Origin: Chromera velia
Lineage: Eukaryota > Sar > Chromeraceae
DNA length: 32,766 nt
Direction: 5' to 3'
Assembly (NCBI GenBank): GCA_018398765.1
Contig: JAHBMJ010003420.1
Location: forward strand, 28,742 to 61,507
The notes beneath the pieces are model-generated. The model worked only from the letters and a program-made list of their open reading frames with translations, did not search any database and had not been told where the DNA came from. Positions 1,451 through 12,647 of the stretch are shown here, piece after piece. Each line of letters starts with the position of its first letter. The stretch's first letter is position 1. The position numbers and the translations under genes were made by a program.

Positions 1451-4182
1451 ATGACGAAGAGATTGGTTTTCCTTTCTCTGACCCTCGCCGGGTCGCTTCC
1501 TCACTCGGCCAGAGGTGACAAGGAGCCCGTCTTCAATTTCGAGGGCATGTTTGAGGACTTTAAGCTGAACGTGCAAAAGCCGCTGGAGGGAATGGCCAAA
1601 GTTCCTGGTCTTGACAAGTTGGCCGGAGTGAAAGAAGAAAGATACGAGGAGAAGAAGGAAGCCGCCAACGAAAAGAGGCTTGACATTGTTGCAGACAGGG
1701 ATGCCGACCCAAATAACGAAAAGCAGACCCTTAAGGTTGCAGGAGTTGCCGGAGACCCCACCCGCCTTCTCACCCTGTCCCACGACACCAATGCCCCCGA
1801 CGTGCTGAACATCGAGGACGGAGATGCCGACGACACCAACGAAATCCAGAGCCTTACGGTGTCGGGAAGCAGCGGAGCTGCAACCCGCACCTTGTCTCTC
1901 TCTGACGACCCGTCGGGGGATGACACACTGAACGTTGAGGATGCGGACAGCAGCACCTCGAACGAAATTCAAAGCTTGTCTGTCACTGGGGTCGCTGGTG
2001 ACGCGACTCGCACCTTCACTCTCTCAAGCGACCCCTCAGGAGCCGACGTGGTGAACATCGAGGACGACGATGCCGATCCCACGAATGAGCTTATCACGGC
2101 CTTTTCTTTCGACAGCTCCTCCTCGACCCTCTCAGTCACTGAGGGGGACACCACTTCCACAGCAGACTTCTCAGCTTGCTGTGGGGGAGGGGGGGGCGGC
2201 AGCACATGTTCGACATTCAACACCAACTCGGGTTTTGGCTCCCTCGCCTGTGGGGGGTTGGGAAACGTTGCTTGTCAAGACGGCTCGGCATATTGTTGGG
2301 TCGGGGGTGGGCAGAACAACATTGCACAAACAAACAAGGCAACCATCGCGGGGGGAGAGGGTAACCAGGCGGCGGGATTCGCGTTCGTGGGGGGGGGGCA
2401 GAACAACATAGGCACCGTGTTTGGAGCAGTGATTGCCGGAGGTATAGGTAACTCCTGTCCCTCTGGCACCTACTGCGCGATTGGAGGAGGGCTCAGCAAT
2501 CAAGCAAGTGACAAAGCAACCGTGGGTGGAGGAGAAAGCAATCAAGCGACGGCATTCGGTTCTACTGTCGGGGGAGGTTTCCAAAATATCGCCAGCGGCG
2601 ATTCCGCCACCGTACCTGGAGGCCGAGATAACACAGCGAGTGGGCCCTTCTCAGTGGCGATGGGGAGATCGGCGACAGCAAACATGCAGAGCTCCTTCAT
2701 ATTTTCTGACAACGATCCGTACGATGTTGGGGGGACCTGGGGAACATCCACTTCGATGAACAGCTTTGAAATCTACGCCTCGGACCTTGTCGCATTCAAT
2801 TTGAGGACAGGACGGTGCATCATCGATGGAGGCGACGTCAGTGAATAGTGCCGTCAGCCAGCCAGCTGATCGATCAAAGAGGCAGTTAGTCAGCGAGCCA
2901 GAAATTCTGCAAGCCAGTGTCAAGCAGTTGAATAGTCAGCTATAACTTACACAGATTATGGGGTTCTGCTGAGAACGACAGACGTGAAGAGGCTCGACAG
3001 TAGAGACGCATGCAGGCACTCCCTTGTTTCCCTGTCTGTCTTCTTCCCCTCTCTTACTGCTGTTGCTCTTCCTCTCTGTCCCCTCTCTCCGCCCCCCCCC
3101 CTCTCTCTTTCTCTCCCTCCCTCTTTTTTCTTCTCTTCGCTCTGTCCGATCTACCCATCTCTCGTTTTCTCACGTTTCTTCACTGTCCTTTTCTTTTTCT
3201 TTTGAATTTACTACTCCACTTTGCTCTCTAATTTTGTACATTTCTGTGTCTGCTGGCCCGTCCTCTCGCTTTTGTCTCTCTTGTTTGTCTGCCTTCGTGT
3301 CCTTCTCCCGGGATTTCTGAGCACCTCTCTGGATTCATCTCCTTGCACCGTCGCGCGAACGATTCAAAAACAAGGTCGCAGATTCAAGGCGTTTTCTTTT
3401 CATCGACCACCCTCCATGCTTGGCGCCATGTTTTGGGCTTGGCTTGCGGAGACCCATGCACCCAGTTTCTTGTTTGTTCTTGTTTGTTCTCTCCCGCTCT
3501 GCAGGCGGCAACCGGACTCCAATGCACCGCATCCTCCGACAAGAACCGCAAGGAGCTCTTGGGGGAACCTGAGGGGAAGCAACTGCTCGATACTCTGGAC
3601 GCTCTGGAGGTGCACAGATTCAGGTGGGGGGGGGAGCGAATGAGTGAACAAATCAGAGAGTGAGTGGGTGTCTGTGTGGGGGACTGTGCGTGTNNNNNNN
3701 NNNNNNNNNNNNNNNNNNNNNNNNNNNNNNNNNNNNNNNNNNNNNNNNNNNNNNNNNNNNNNNNNNNNNNNNNNNNNNNNNNNNNNNNNNNNNNNNNNNN
3801 NNNNNNNNNNNNNNNNNNNNNNNNNNNNNNNNNNNNNNNNNNNNNNNNNNNNNNNNNNNNNNNNGGGGGGGAGAGATAGAAAGAGACTCTTCCTATCTGC
3901 TCGTGTGAATTGACTGCACGAGCTATGCTCTGCAGGTACAAACGTCCAGAGGACAACCTGAGAGGAACATCCGAGACGGACAGACAGCGCGCCAGAGCAC
4001 TGCACATCGGACCCACAGCTCAGGTCAGTGGCAGCACTCGCCTTTTCACCTCACGCACGCATGCAGGTGCTCTCTTCGATCACATCTGATCGCCCTCTGT
4101 GCGCAGCCATGCTAGCCAGCTTGCCTGCTTGGTCTCCACTAGGGCTGGTGTGAACTGCATCTGTGCACATGTAGATACATAG

Positions 4183-4213
<31 letters not shown>

Positions 4214-4214
4214 T

Positions 4215-4249
<35 letters not shown>

Positions 4250-5161
4250 AGGTTTCTTGTTGATTTGTGGCTGTAGGAAGATCTCCAGATTTGTGTGCCC
4301 CAGAAACTGTTACCCTCTTGTGCGGAAGGGACGTGAAGGACTGTGCTTACTTACCTTAATTCTATTGCTGCGATCAAAGCTCTTCGATCCTCCCTCCCTC
4401 TGCATGGACGTCTATTGTTTTCTTTTCCACTGCATGCATGCATGCAGGATTTCGCGGCTGCCTTTGGATTCGGTGCTGCAACCGCTGAAGGGAAGGAGGC
4501 GACGACTGTGTCCCCTGCCGACCTGGCCTCCGTCGGTCTGGTCGGTGTGAAGGAATTGAACAGGCAACTGGGAGATCTGAGGAAGACTGTGGCTGATCAG
4601 GTCTGTCAGCTGTAGGGGATAATTTGGGATGGACGATGGATACGCGGAAGGAATGATGCCTGACTGGCTGGATGAATGAATTTTCACCGTGTGAATGAGG
4701 ATATTGACATTTTTGAAACCCCTGTCTGTCTGCCTGCCTGCCTGATCTCGAAGAAGGATGTGTCACGCACCTGTAGGGTCAAATGAGAGAGAGAAGATTT
4801 GCACACTGCTGTCATGTGCGAGAGCAGCTCAAATTTCGTTGCGTATTTTGCCAGTCAGATTCACTTTCACGGGGCTGTAATGTGTCCCCTGTCCCCTCTC
4901 TCTTTGCCTTCTCTCTGTGGTCTCGTTGATGGTGCATGGACAATGCTGTGAGAGGAAGGAAGATCTGACATATTCCACGCCCCAATGAACGCTTGCCGGT
5001 GAAGAAATAGAACTCCGCTTGAGTTTCCTTCTTAGACTCATGTTTGCATTGAACGAACAAATGAGAGGCTGCAGGCGAAGGAGATCGAGGCACTGAAGGA
5101 GGGCTTCGCGCTTCTGTCTGCACAGCTGAAGCAAGGAGGGGTCAAGACCTACGTTGCATAG
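1451..5161 (+). CDS. Secreted fibre-like protein: stalk repeats, YadA-like head and C-terminal S74 intramolecular chaperone
   Basis: Five exons: 1451-2836, 3505-3623, 3936-4023, 4448-4600, 5036-5161. Phases match at every junction, giving 623 residues. Residues 1-22 look like a signal peptide. Residues 84 to about 244 are stalk repeats of 41 residues starting D-A-D-x-T-N-E-I-Q, as in bacterial and phage fibre proteins. A Gly/Cys-rich linker follows. Residues 284-413 are YadA-like beta-roll units (VGGGxxN.A....ATIAGG). After FIFSDNDP...NSFEIYASDLVAFN comes the S74 chaperone: SSDKNRKE with S473 and K478 at the spacing of the self-cleaving Ser/Lys of endosialidase chaperones, then FRYKRPED, the HIGPTAQDFAAAFGFG core and a C-terminal coiled coil (about 540-610). 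S74 domains trimerise fibres and then cut themselves off. The introns argue that this is a resident nuclear gene and not bacterial contamination. The ligand and cellular location are unknown. One intron contains an assembly gap. Confidence 0.9.
1700..2182 (+). repeat. Four fibre-stalk protein repeats within exon 1
   Basis: Three full 41-residue units (residues 84-124, 125-165, 166-206) and one degenerate unit (207 to about 244). Each opens with an acidic D-x-x-x-x-N-E motif, runs through a short beta-hairpin-like stretch (LTVSG...TRTLSLS) and ends in NIED or NVED. The units are clearly similar at the DNA level, so they arose by tandem duplication. Similar units occur as spacers in bacterial surface and tail-fibre proteins. 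Confidence 0.85.
2300..2689 (+). repeat. YadA-like beta-roll head repeats
   Basis: About nine turns of 14-16 residues with a GGG(x)xN(x)A core and small residues between (residues 284-413), matching left-handed beta-roll heads of trimeric autotransporter adhesins. One turn carries extra Cys residues (NSCPSGTYCA), which is unusual for a bacterial head and may form a disulphide in the secretory pathway. Confidence 0.8.
3694..3864. other. Assembly gap (171 N)
   Basis: A run of N inside the second intron of the S74 gene. It is flanked by G-rich, GT-rich sequence, so a simple repeat probably broke the assembly. Exon phases on the two sides agree, so no coding sequence appears to be missing. Confidence 1.
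4181..4246. repeat. (GATA)n/(GA)n microsatellite
   Basis: A compound GATA and GA repeat inside the third intron of the S74 gene. Confidence 0.9.
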
Positions 5162-5734: not shown

Positions 5735-6640
5735 ATGCAATAGGGCACAAACAAACTTGAACTTACTACTTAAATATTTTTTGTCGTGTATATATATCTA
5801 TGACCTAGCCTGTAACCTAACTAGGTACATACATATTTACCCTAGTATTTTAAGCTGCCTTTACCAAGCATATATTTTTTTTTGCCTGTTATTATCTAAG
5901 TTGTTATCTTGTCAGTGAACTATAAATTGAAAACTTTGGCCCCCACTTTAGCTAGAGCCTGCTCGTCTGAAGTATTGCTAGATATTTATCTGAAAGTATA
6001 TTATTAGATTTAAATGTAAAAATAAATTGATGTTAAAAAAAAATCTAACAATTTATGCTACGGCCCCTACCTTACTGAGTGTTTGATTTATAAAATCATT
6101 GTCCAAATCATTATCATCAATTTGTGGGCACTACCCTGCAAGTACCTAAAAATTTAAACAGGAATTTAGAGGAATTTAGAGGAATTTAGACAGGAATTTA
6201 GGGGAATATAGAGGAATTTAGCTAGGAATCTAAAGGAATTTAAAGACAGGAATTTAGAGGAATTTAGTAATTTTTGGAGGTGAATTTCTCATGAACTATG
6301 ATCAGTTGGAACTTGATATTAACGGTGCTTATAGATCTAATATAGGTCTCTAAGCACTGTCAATATCAACTTCTAACTCATCATCGTTCATAAGAAATTG
6401 ACCTCCAAAATTTAGGAATTTAGAGCTCTAAATTCCTTCAGATTCCTGTCTAGATTCCTCTAAAATCCTGTCTAAATTCCTAGGTCTTTGCAGGGTAGTG
6501 TCGGCATGACAGCGCATAATGCTGTTATACCAGTGTGATTATAATATTCAAACTGTAGCAAAAACACTAGCAAGCACATTTTCTAAGTCATTTCGACCTA
6601 GTTTTTGACAAGTTGACTGACAGGACTTGACATAGTAGCA
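5735..6640. other. AT-rich island
   Basis: Base composition shifts abruptly to AT-rich here, with TATATA, TTTTTTTT and AAAAAAAA tracts, against GC-rich flanks. There is no open frame of note. The foldback element at 6129-6500 lies within it. It may be a decayed transposon or an insertion of foreign composition; its own termini are not clear. Confidence 0.6.
6129..6500. mobile_element. Foldback/MITE-like element with CACTA-type terminal inverted repeats
   Basis: The left end CACTACCCTGCAA and the right end TTGCAGGGTAGTG are perfect 13-bp inverted repeats. The inverted similarity continues inward (ACCTA, AATTTA, ACAGG, GGAATTTAGAGG) and through the centre (GGAGGTGAATTTCTCATGAAC against its partner near 6380-6407), so nearly the whole element can fold into one hairpin. 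The left arm carries extra GGAATTTAG units and is longer. There is no coding capacity, so it would be non-autonomous. The CACTA ends suggest the CMC/CACTA superfamily, but no 3-bp target duplication is evident (GGG before, TCG after). Confidence 0.75.
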
Positions 6641-7796: not shown

Positions 7797-9114
7797 TAGC
7801 ATTCAGAGGAAAGCATGGAACAGAATGGGAGAAAAAAGGGGAGCTCAGCTAAAACGAACAAAAGAATGACAGATCAAAACCGCCAGATCGAGCTCTTCCC
7901 ATACACTTGGTTCTCTCACAGCTTCACCCTGCCTATATTTAAGTGCAGCGTACAGCTTCATGCACATTACTATGAAAGAAGGGAGGAAGGAATGGAAGAA
8001 GAAAGGAGAGAAGGTATCCAGAAAGGATCGGCAGAGTCGTAAGGAAAAAGCAGAAGGAAAGACGCTCAAAAGACTCTCTGTCATGCGGTCGACTTGATGC
8101 AAAGCGAAGGAAAGGGGCAAGCCACGAACAACATCGTCTCCCTCTCTCTCTCCCTCCCTCCCTCGCTCCGTACTGATTCTCATTACGACGCTGACGTTTC
8201 TTGTCAACGCTTGATTGTCCTTTCCCGCTCTCCTCTCGCTCTTCCTGCTGCATTCTCTACCAAAGAGTCTCCATTCTTGCTCTTCTGTACAATGACCTCT
8301 CTCTCTCATCCCTCATGCACTCACTCACCTCAAAAAGGGGTCCCCGAAAATAAAAAGAGGCCCGTTCGGGGGGGCAATGTCCAGAGACATCAGAGCGAGG
8401 GTGCAGCTGGTACCGTCTGGGCTCTTCTCCACATAATCCTGCAACAGGCGAATTTACTTGTTCCATTTCTTCTCAGGCCTTCATGAGAAAGCAGAGCTCT
8501 GTGATGTTCGAAATGCTCTTTCCCTTCCATTCGACGAAAAAACCTGGCTACTTCACAAGAAGCCAAGAAAAAGCAGAGCACAGTACAGCAAAGCCCCGAT
8601 AGATCCATGCAGATGGCCCCAATGCGATTAATATCATTTATTGGTTCAATCTCATGACCTGCTGATCAAAATGCATCACCTGCCCATCATGCAGTTCCTG
8701 TCCTCATCTCCTTCTTCGCTTCAACCGCAACGAAGAGGATAAAAGACTACACCCCCAGGGCAGCCACTGCCTCCCTCCCCTCCTGTATGCCCTATAACAG
8801 AAGAGGAGAGACCAGCCAACGAACGAACGAACCTCGGGTCTGAGGTTGAGAACGTGGGAGCCTACGAGGAACCCCAAGTCCTCCAGATCGTCGAAATTCG
8901 AACAGTCCCCGTTCACCTGAGGGAGGGACACGCAGGGAGGGAGGCGAGGAAAAACGGCAACTTGGGTAAATAGCCGGTAAGTGAGGAAGGGGGGGGCAAC
9001 TGAGCAAGGGGAGGACAACGCGCGAATCGATCGGCAAGAGAGTGTGTGGAAAAGGCAGTGCGCAACTCTAGACCACGAAAAGAGAGAGAGAGAGAGAAAG
9101 AGAGAGATTGAGCG

Positions 9115-9150
<36 letters not shown>

Positions 9151-11217
9151 TGACGTTAAGTCGGGCGGAGAGTTCTGCCACGATGTCAGAGGGTCCGGCC
9201 ATCAAGGACGTGCCTGTGTCCACTGCAACCTGCAAACAGGGAGGGAGAGAGAGAGACAGACCAGCAGGCAGGCGCCCGTGTCGGTGCTTGAGTTTCTTCA
9301 TTCTGTCAATTTGGCAAGTCCAAAGGACCCCACCCGCAAAACGCGTCCTCCAGCTGCCTGCTCAGCTCCCTCACATAAACCTAACAGACAGACAACCAAC
9401 TTGCCTTCACAGTCGACGAGTTTGACCTAGGCCTGGCCTGTCAGGTTTGTTCAGCCCACTCTTCTATCTGTGACACGACGCAAAATAAAGACGACGTGTC
9501 TGTCATTTTCTTCTCTAGAGCAACCAGGCAAGCAAAAACCTCACCCACCCGGCCACCCTTCCTACCTGGCATGTCGAAGCGTTCCAAGCCGGCTTCGACA
9601 CTTCCTCTCTGTGTCCCCTCTTCCCTCTGTGTGCGTGTCCGTTAGCGTGCACATCCGTCCACACACCTTCTCCCTCTTCGCCTCCTTGCCCCTCCCCGTC
9701 TCTGTCTCCCCCTGAGGAGACGGGCGGACTGTCCCCAGCCTCCCCTCCCCCCTCGCTCGAAGAAGCAGACGAGGAAGAAGAGGAGGCGATCTTGCACAGG
9801 CCCTGGGGTTCGTTCCCGATAGAAATGTCTTGCATCGTCACCTGATTGCAGGAGGGGAGGGATAAGTCCGCATGCAGGCCAAGAGAGGAAGCAGAAGAGG
9901 AGACGGAAATCGATAAGCTTGACTTAAGGCAGGAAGGAGGCCTCAAACAGGCGAGGAAGATTCCTGAAAGGACCTGTAAGTAAACTGTTCTCTCGGTCTG
10001 TCAAGCCTGGACCCGACCTCTCGTTTCATTCAACAAAAGTAATTAAAATTACACACGCACCGGTACTTCCAAAGCTGACGTACAAACAAACAAACGAACA
10101 AACAAACAAACAAAAAGAGAGGCCGGCCGACCTGCCAGTACCCCTCTTTTGAGACAGGGATCCAGACGAGATCTGAGTCCATCCTCTCCTTCCTCCAGTT
10201 ACCGAATGTGATCTCAGACTCCTCTCCCTCGCCGTCTCCAAGAAACACAGAAAACACATTGTGTTCCATGTGCCCGCCAGCAGACAGTCTGCAATCATCA
10301 TGTGCTCAGCTGACTGAAGACATTCTCCCACTACTGTGCTTCATTCCCTTCGTTATCTTCCCTAGACCATACAACTGGTCTGTGAGTTAGAGACCCGTAT
10401 CGCTGGGATGCACGCTGTTGAGTAAATATTTGTTTTGACAGAATGACAACCAAATAGATTCCTGTCCCAACAACAACATACAAGGATGAACAGAAGAGAA
10501 AAAAGTCACACGCAGACGCAAAATTCCTTTTTGACAAATCGGCCGAGTGCCAATTAATGCAAAGCGAGTTCACTGGCGGTCAACACATGGAGCGCACACA
10601 CGTTCTGCCTCGTTTTCATCGAAAAGACACTTAAGAGTGGGAGGGAGGACACCTGCACTCACACACCTACCTGTTGAATATGTTGAACTGCACTCCTTCG
10701 CTCATTCCATCCAGGGCGAGACCCAGCACGCCGTCGAAAGGAACGGAGGCGAAGGGGAAGTCTGACTCTTCAGTCGTCGCAAGGAAGTCCGCGTCTGCAC
10801 ACACAGCGCCGTCACCCACGCAGACCGTGTCCCTCACCACCACACCGCTGATCTCTCCCGTGCCAAACGTGATCGTTATTACGTCTCTGCATGAAGAGGA
10901 AGGGCACAGGCTATGAACATGTCCATTACTTGACTTTTATATGCCGTTTGTGACATCGTATTTCGACACGCACGGGGACCCTCCCAAGAAGCGAATGGCA
11001 AAAGCAGAAGAAAAAAGGGAGGAAGGAAGGAAGGAAGAGAGAAGCAGAGCCTGTAGCAACTCCCGCTACCTCAATCGGACCCCCCCAGACGTATTCCCTG
11101 ACCATCTCACCTCACCTCTCTCCCGAGTCCCCCACTTTCTCCAGAGGCTTGTCGGCAAACGCGATCTGGCGACTCGTGCTTGAATTTCCAGGGTCGTACA
11201 AGGGCCGCTCCTGCACT

Positions 11218-11285
<68 letters not shown>

Positions 11286-12647
11286 ACGCCTTCCTGTCTG
11301 CCGCAGCCATCCAGCACCAACTTGGCATTCAAAGCCTCCATACTGCCTCCCCTTTGTCCCCAACACTCGATGAAGGTCCTCTTCCAAAAATCTGTCAGGT
11401 ATTCATTCTCTGACCTGAAGAAATTTTCTGGTGCGATTTCACAAATAAAGAGGTCGCTTTGGATGTGTTTGCTTCCATTCTCTTTTCTCACAAGGCAGTG
11501 GTCGCTGAGTCTCTCTTACTTGTACTCCTTACCGACCGACTGACTGACAGAGCAAGCATCAGAGGTGCAGTCGATGGAGGGGATCAACAGGTTCCCGCTG
11601 CCTGTGTCGAAAACGACAGTGAACTCCTTCGGGGGTCGACCTGCAACCACAGAAATATAATTCTTGCGTAGAATTCTCAATTCATATCGTATATAGGTGC
11701 ATTGACAGCCATCCATGCGATGTTGCAGTAGCAAGATTTTCCTCGCACACAACTCTGGACTCAAGAAGTGGTCAGGAGACAGAGAACAGAGGGCGGAGCT
11801 TCACACAGACCGGAAGTGTCATTTCTTTCACCCGAGTGTTTCTTTCCATTTTTCCAGAGACAGGCAAGCGAGTAGATAGACAAGCCGGCAGGCAAACAGA
11901 TGCAGGCACACACCCACCCACACACACACACAGAGTGTGACTAAATTGCGGATAGGTGGAAGAAGACAAGTCGGAAGGAAGTACAGTCAAAGATCCCGGC
12001 AAAGTTTCTCAAGGTCTGTCCTTTCCTTTTTGGCGTTGCTTTCTCTGAAAACAGGGCGCAAGAAAGGAAGAGTGAAGACACGTACCGACGGAGATCTTCC
12101 CGAAGTACTCAGTGGCATGGAGCACCGCCTCCAAGTCTCCTCCCCTTCGCCCGTATCCGTAAGCGTGGGCGTGTCTGAAACGGCCTGAATACCGGAGAAG
12201 CGCGTCGTGTCGCTGCATGAGGCCGGTCTTCTTCTTCCTCGTCAATGGAATCGTGCGGGAAAGCTTTTGCTCTTGGTTTATTCTTCCATCTCCCTCAGAC
12301 CTGTGCGTTGCTTGTTCTGTGTCCTCCCCTCCGTATCCAGACTGCAGTGACGCAATCGTCATGTTCACTGAAAACTCTGGAGTGCCCCCCCTTCCGGCAT
12401 CCTCTCTACCTGCCCCTGCCAGACCGTCTCCACTCCCGTGGCTTTGCTGCAGCAGCGGCGGGGGCTGAAGGGCTTGAGAGGCATGGTCGCGTTCCGCGGA
12501 GTCCGGCAAGAGCTTTGGACCCGCAGCTACACCCAGACTCCTTGCAATGGAGTGGCTTGGAGTCAGAGAAAGAAGGGGAAACAGCAGGTGGAGGGAGAAA
12601 GAGAAAAGTCCCAAATGCCAGGACTGCCGAAAAAGGACCCAGCGCAT
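7466..12647 (-). CDS. Pepsin-family (A1) aspartic protease
   Basis: Ten exons on the minus strand: 12647-12086, 11640-11549, 11210-11116, 10886-10671, 10288-10132, 9841-9566, 9229-9155, 8916-8833, 8438-8329, 7646-7466. Phases agree throughout, giving about 615 residues. An in-frame Met at 12758 would add 37 residues. Residues 1-187 hold an uncleaved-looking hydrophobic segment (signal or signal-anchor) and a propeptide-like region ending EYFGKISVG. The first catalytic motif is [14 protein letters not shown] (D199), with a following Cys pair. The flap is [10 protein letters not shown]. The second catalytic motif is [12 protein letters not shown] (D470). The C-lobe signatures [13 protein letters not shown] and [14 protein letters not shown] close the fold. 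A Ser/Glu/Gly-rich insertion of about 70 residues lies just before D470. The 3' end is unsure: reading through gives a TAA at 7468-7466, but GTCCGT at 7546 could be a donor to a further exon. It probably acts in the secretory or endosomal system. Confidence 0.9.
7767..7793. repeat. (GA)n microsatellite
   Basis: An AG/GA dinucleotide run inside the last modelled intron of the aspartic protease. Confidence 0.9.
9115..9150. repeat. (GACA)9 microsatellite at an intron donor
   Basis: On the minus strand this reads TGTCTGTC repeats and follows directly on the GTCAGTC donor at 9154 after exon 7 of the aspartic protease. Confidence 0.9.
10082..10115. repeat. (CAAA)n microsatellite
   Basis: A CAAA/ACAA run with one CGAA interruption, in the intron after exon 5 of the aspartic protease. 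Confidence 0.85.
11224..11282. repeat. (CT)n(CA)n compound microsatellite
   Basis: About 15 CT units run straight into about 14 CA units, in the aspartic-protease intron just upstream of exon 3. Confidence 0.95.

Follow-up and report, generated by a model that had tools for sequence, protein, structure and literature searches.

Does the alga Chromera velia possess a fibre gene of bacterial type, complete with the S74 chaperone that would trimerise the fibre and then cut itself off? The question is raised by a gene at positions 1451–5161 (+) of a 32,766-nucleotide stretch of assembly GCA_018398765.1, referred to here as the window, whose position 1 corresponds to position 28,742 of contig JAHBMJ010003420.1 on the forward strand. 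Sequence reading resolves the gene into five in-phase exons with GT–AG borders. Our preferred reading, to which we assign a probability of roughly 0.6, is that of a horizontally acquired nuclear gene whose product is secreted, trimerised by its S74 domain and then separated from this domain by cleavage.

The 610-residue product is identical to a Chromera velia CCMP2878 protein (P0001) held in UniRef, EukProt and Metaclust. Its UniRef name, “Peptidase S74 domain-containing protein”, signifies that the gene had been annotated previously. The acceptor of exon 5 is most likely 5075, which gives the 610 residues; an alternative acceptor at 5036 would give the 623 residues originally predicted. According to the Chromera genome paper, RNA-seq served as intron evidence in the genome-wide gene prediction (PMC4501334). 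The gene contains the following features:

1451–2836, plus strand: exon 1 (residues 1–462), with signal-peptide-like start, N-terminal region, stalk and head; identical to P0001
1451–1516, plus strand: predicted signal peptide MTKRLVFLSLTLAGSLPHSARG (residues 1–22; boundary set by eye)
1517–1690, plus strand: N-terminal region (residues 23–80), in the place of the bacterial YQG/YQA domain
1691–2164, plus strand: stalk (residues ~81–238), four 41-residue repeats of the D-x-D-A-D-x-x-N-E type
2213–2800, plus strand: head (residues ~255–450), UspA1/YadA-type left-handed beta-roll with nine GGxxN motifs
2837–3504, plus strand: intron 1, between exons 1 and 2
3505–3623, plus strand: exon 2, start of S74, with the codons of Ser473 (3535–3537) and Lys478 (3550–3552)
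3694–3864, no strand: run of 171 N within intron 2
3936–4023, plus strand: exon 3, S74, with the exon boundary inside GPTAQ/DF
4448–4600, plus strand: exon 4, S74 from DF to GLVGVKELN, then the beginning of the coiled coil
5075–5161, plus strand: exon 5, C-terminal coiled coil, with the stop codon TAG at 5159–5161

The S74 domain carries an SDxxxK motif (S473, D474, K478), whose positions match the dyad site of MYRF and phage endosialidase. Across 218 aligned S74 domains, the three motif positions are occupied by Ser (205), Asp (202) and Lys (215); the Chromera protein keeps all three, together with His525 and the GPxAQDF core. In MYRF, S587A and K592A are reported to stop cutting, which falls before S587 (PMC8326128), and the SDxxxK serine is likewise described as required for self-cleavage in Bd3182 of Bdellovibrio (PMC10769870). 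In the second of two structure models, the S74 part (residues 471–560) included blocks with predicted local distance difference test (pLDDT) values of 74–93, and residues 554–602 formed one long helix. A search of the PDB with the single sequence gave no S74 match, and NCBIfam returned no family at E ≤ 0.01, the N-terminal model NF053851 of the Bdellovibrio MAT fibres included. The serine is replaced by cysteine in 11 of the 218 domains, four of them from IMG/VR; in one bacterial relative (P0025), the motif begins with Cys-Asp instead of Ser-Asp.

The head was assigned to the UspA1/YadA type: a left-handed beta-roll in which a unit of about 15 residues is repeated. Its pLDDT was mostly 89–98 in the first model and 81–98 across most of residues 271–420 in the second, and its best structural match was the solved UspA1. 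An adhesin role is suggested for the fibre solely by these relatives of its head. It is very improbable that the roll is an ice-binding protein instead: a profile search of the PDB did match such a protein (E 6.3e-7), but UspA1 far more strongly (E 8.5e-48), with MyRF at E 0.085.

Upstream of the head, the stalk has a period of exactly 41 residues (identity 0.412 vs a maximum of 0.217 over 2000 shuffles). The protein database search returned 33 further proteins with stalks of the DADPTNE type, none of them eukaryote-labelled or EukProt-sourced; two are named to organism, a Bacteroidota bacterium and Salibacter. The stalk motif was found in none of the 119 other listed relatives, 102 of which bear S74 by motif counts. 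Conversely, none of the 33 stalk relatives was matched by the S74 model of the P0001 family, yet P0122 and P0140 are listed with PF13884. The combination of stalk, head and P0001-type S74 thus appears confined to the Chromera protein among the sequence sets compared. At the N-terminus, hydropathy peaks at 1.94 within residues 5–16 (11-residue windows). The region that follows is without a listed counterpart among the bacterial relatives and contains a weakly predicted helix at residues 55–73 (second model); YQG/YQA, present in the first 120 residues of 87 of the 119 listed relatives, is absent. The original prediction of a bacterial-type fibre with secretion-type start, 41-residue repeats, YadA-like head, GPTAQDF core and C-terminal coiled coil, encoded on phase-matched exons, was borne out.

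How might such a fibre be made? The signal peptide would carry the chain into the endoplasmic reticulum (ER), where three chains would assemble via the C-terminal coiled coil and the S74 domain, which together would act as a folding template for the beta-roll head and the stalk. In the correctly folded trimer, each chain would be cut before Ser473 by the Ser473/Lys478 dyad, so that a fibre of about 450 residues remains and a chaperone of 138 is set free. Trimerisation and self-cleavage in Chromera are both suggested by analogy with the characterised S74 proteins. Ten cysteines, compared with a median of three in the relatives, fit an oxidising secretory route. No second hydrophobic segment or membrane anchor was seen (maximum 19-residue hydropathy 1.13), which makes a soluble or wall-bound fibre likely; from its sequence, the product is likely a disulphide-braced adhesin that is soluble or resides in the cell wall or matrix.

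The exon structure mirrors the predicted cleavage. Exon 1, with 462 codons, stops ten residues ahead of the cut site at Ser473 and is predicted to encode almost exactly the mature fibre, while exons 2–5 would encode the disposable chaperone. If intron 1 is retained, conceptual translation reaches a stop three codons on, and the resulting 465-residue fibre without S74 almost equals the S74-trimmed form. A tentative extension of our reading, which we find rather doubtful, is that a cellular eukaryote captured a bacterial fibre with its self-cutting S74 chaperone and runs it through its own secretory route, and that splicing of intron 1, which lies where fibre and chaperone adjoin, would switch between a chaperoned and a chaperone-less fibre. 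The fact that intron retention terminates the protein nearly at the cleavage point is, however, also compatible with an S74 domain that is a dead relic, the fibre being never cut or made solely in the 465-residue form.

Several observations weigh against our preferred reading, and two of them favour the relic as well. PF13884 scores 21.2 bits, under the cut-off of 22 (E 3.6e-4, profile positions 1–53 of 58), and the P0001 branch is the longest in both trees described below (2.57 for S74; 4.78 for neck-plus-S74), so constraint may have been relaxed and activity lost. Moreover, the S74 region used as a query found itself alone at E ≤ 1e-3 among 4101 candidates, MyRF was not among the best 50 structural matches listed for the second model, and the stalk repeats were modelled with low confidence. 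An insert of about 13 residues (by eye) lies ahead of HIGP, and residue 559 is Ser where 214 of the 218 domains have Gly. The relic nevertheless seems unlikely to us: the motif residues, His525 and the GPxAQDF core have been kept, and reading frame, phase and heptads are unbroken across the exons.

Is the gene the alga's own? A bacterial contaminant or scaffolding artefact could be suspected, as the bacterial share of Chromera reads is given as 20% in the genome paper (PMC4501334), the gene is split by the 171-N run, and the window is flanked by long N runs. Yet only intron 2 of the gene contains N. Exon 1, intron 1 and exon 2 occupy one N-free stretch that reads through only if spliced, and exons 3–5 share another N-free stretch, reaching 20692, with one neighbouring gene and the start of another, both identified by Pfam scan:

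9071–11800, minus strand: exons of a eukaryotic aspartyl protease, PF00026
from ~13873, plus strand: N-terminal domain of listerin (LTN1), PF22958; the gene probably reaches the right edge of the window

These adjoining eukaryotic genes make contamination unlikely, as does the fact that a bacterial contaminant is not expected to have introns whose removal restores S74. GC content at third codon positions (GC3) points the same way, with 0.63–0.66 for the fibre gene, near the 0.54–0.62 of four long listerin-side frames, of which the first alone has a listerin match. We consider an artefact highly improbable. Judged by their sequence, the introns are of the spliceosomal type and in phase and, together with the neighbours, identify the gene as eukaryotic. 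Elsewhere in the genome, intron 1 matched weakly and only by its pyrimidine-rich part, and the DNA upstream of the gene had no match; neither is proof of Chromera origin.

The gene appears to be single copy. A search of the Chromera genome with P0001 retrieved the five exons, exon 1 as the top match, and no other matches that would indicate a paralogue; a bacterial relative used as the query matched exon 1 and nothing else. Two profile searches of the genome carry limits of their own: PF13884 against the unspliced sequence is uninformative for paralogues, missing even the P0001 gene, which is presumably split by its introns, and MYRF_ICA found nothing, as did the controls. Matches to PF21300 on C3653 were full of stops and were rejected as repeats. 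No other eukaryote-labelled or EukProt row occurred among the best 120 of 896 database relatives, in a search that requires shared 5-residue words and lists the best rows, which distant eukaryotic copies could escape.

Where did the fibre come from? The sequence relatives of head plus S74 are mostly fibres from bacterial genomes (Chloroflexota, Zixiibacteriota, Verrucomicrobiota and others). In bacterial and archaeal genomes, at least 582 stretches matched the search pattern, 533 of those listed being relatives; the 79 loci kept all have bacterial titles, with a best E of 2e-41 among the matches listed. The proposed horizontal acquisition from outside eukaryotes is accordingly likely, by a bacterial or viral carrier. 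The original label “phage/bacterial-type” held for its bacterial half. Phage origin as the best label was rejected: a tblastn search with P0001 found nothing at E ≤ 1e-3 in 50,697 phage records, and PHROGs yielded no match either.

Viral contigs of IMG/VR yielded 36 loci, mostly S74 only, with a best E of 4e-19 and the others at 3e-11 or weaker. The best locus (L080, 4038–6137) is a bacterial-type YQG-head-S74 gene near an integrase-like gene (by eye) and may represent a bacterial mobile element, not a phage fibre. With P0001 itself as the query, no relative was found on these contigs. Among 120 head-motif stretches listed, P0001 had one relative, in the head only (L158, 9970–12387, minus strand; E 1.6e-32), a UspA1-like head protein encoded by a tailed phage that also has terminase and sheath; on these stretches, a search with the neck-plus-S74 model produced two weak matches (E 2e-4). 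When all 120 database records served as queries, weaker matches also appeared: L156, L151, L212 and L239, none of them better than 1e-18, and several more at about 1e-5.

A virus of eukaryotes, giant or polinton-like, may instead have been the carrier, which would make the Chromera gene a domesticated, bacterial-like viral fibre. In a structure search of BFVD, the top seven matches carry giant-virus names (best E 2.8e-8) and include S74 and YadA-head proteins of Solivirus and pithoviruses; the eighth is from a tailed phage. Polinton-like viruses in protist genomes are reported to encode fibres with the endosialidase chaperone as well as a single YadA head (PMC12220804), and a peptidase S74 match is mentioned for Ostreococcus viruses (PMC12906663). 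In the S74 tree (218 rows, few columns), P0001 groups with 21 IMG/VR rows with a Shimodaira–Hasegawa-like approximate likelihood-ratio (SH-aLRT) support of 88. The row nearest to P0001 by path is bacterial in the neck-plus-S74 tree, which holds 91 of the 208 rows found (P0001, 45 bacterial loci, 20 proteins chosen by score and 25 viral rows). Approximately unbiased (AU) tests reject neither the viral (p 0.885) nor the bacterial grouping (p 0.883), and neither the S74 tree originally called for nor the neck-plus-S74 tree, both with few columns and a very long Chromera branch, singles out a donor. Since long branches meet in these trees, most IMG/VR relatives match S74 alone, and a Pfam scan of 20 neighbouring frames, out of 222 listed for the window and its flanks, turned up no viral family, we regard a eukaryotic virus as a possible but somewhat improbable carrier.

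The P0001 gene represents a eukaryotic form of a fibre design known from bacteria and viruses. Bacterial S74 fibres, named “tail fiber domain-containing” or “trimeric autotransporter adhesin”, share its UspA1-type head, neck, SDxxxK S74 and coiled coil, with 28–39% identity where most of residues 250–610 is covered, among the matches listed; unlike them, the Chromera gene has four introns, an ER-type start, the 41-residue stalk and ten cysteines, and lacks YQG/YQA. The type Vc trimeric autotransporter adhesins UspA1 and YadA have the same head fold, whereas P0001 shows no C-terminal anchor family (Pfam, E ≤ 1) and ends in S74 plus one helix instead. Bdellovibrio MAT fibres are surface fibres with a signal peptide; S74 with SDxxxK is reported to end 13 of 21, and Bd3182 to cleave itself at S782 (PMC10769870). 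P0001 differs from them in its fibre tip and has no match to their N-terminal domain NF053851. Giant-virus and polinton-like-virus fibres have the same kinds of S74 and YadA-head domains (PMC12220804), but the Chromera gene is nuclear and intron-bearing.

The original prediction knew of no described eukaryotic system of this kind. In that breadth the statement fails, as MYRF (PMC3742443, PMC8326128), its Dictyostelium orthologue MrfA and the polinton-like-virus S74 fibres have been described. Unlike MYRF, P0001 has no DNA-binding family (Pfam, E ≤ 1) and no membrane segment. Literature searches, whose coverage excluded most subscription papers and preprints, found, among the papers listed, no description of the P0001 gene or of any nuclear-encoded secreted S74 fibre of its kind. 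To our knowledge, no earlier cellular use of S74 in building an extracellular fibre has been recorded in eukaryotes. If active, the Chromera protein would be the second cellular eukaryotic use of the S74 chaperone, beside MYRF. A photosynthetic relative of apicomplexans would then possess a horizontally acquired adhesin of bacterial type, and its gene would illustrate how trimer assembly of a prokaryotic kind can be adapted to the ER.

Two further elements were noted around the gene. Upstream of the window, beyond a long N run, lies a C-terminal exon of an aldo/keto reductase (L116, 2768–3361). Downstream of the gene, positions 6129–6500 hold a palindromic, AT-rich insert. Its terminal inverted repeats (CACTACCCTGCAA...TTGCAGGGTAGTG) have 52-nucleotide arms that are 87% complementary, and it contains an inner hairpin of 79 nucleotides; we take it to be an element resembling a miniature inverted-repeat transposable element (MITE) with CACTA-type ends.
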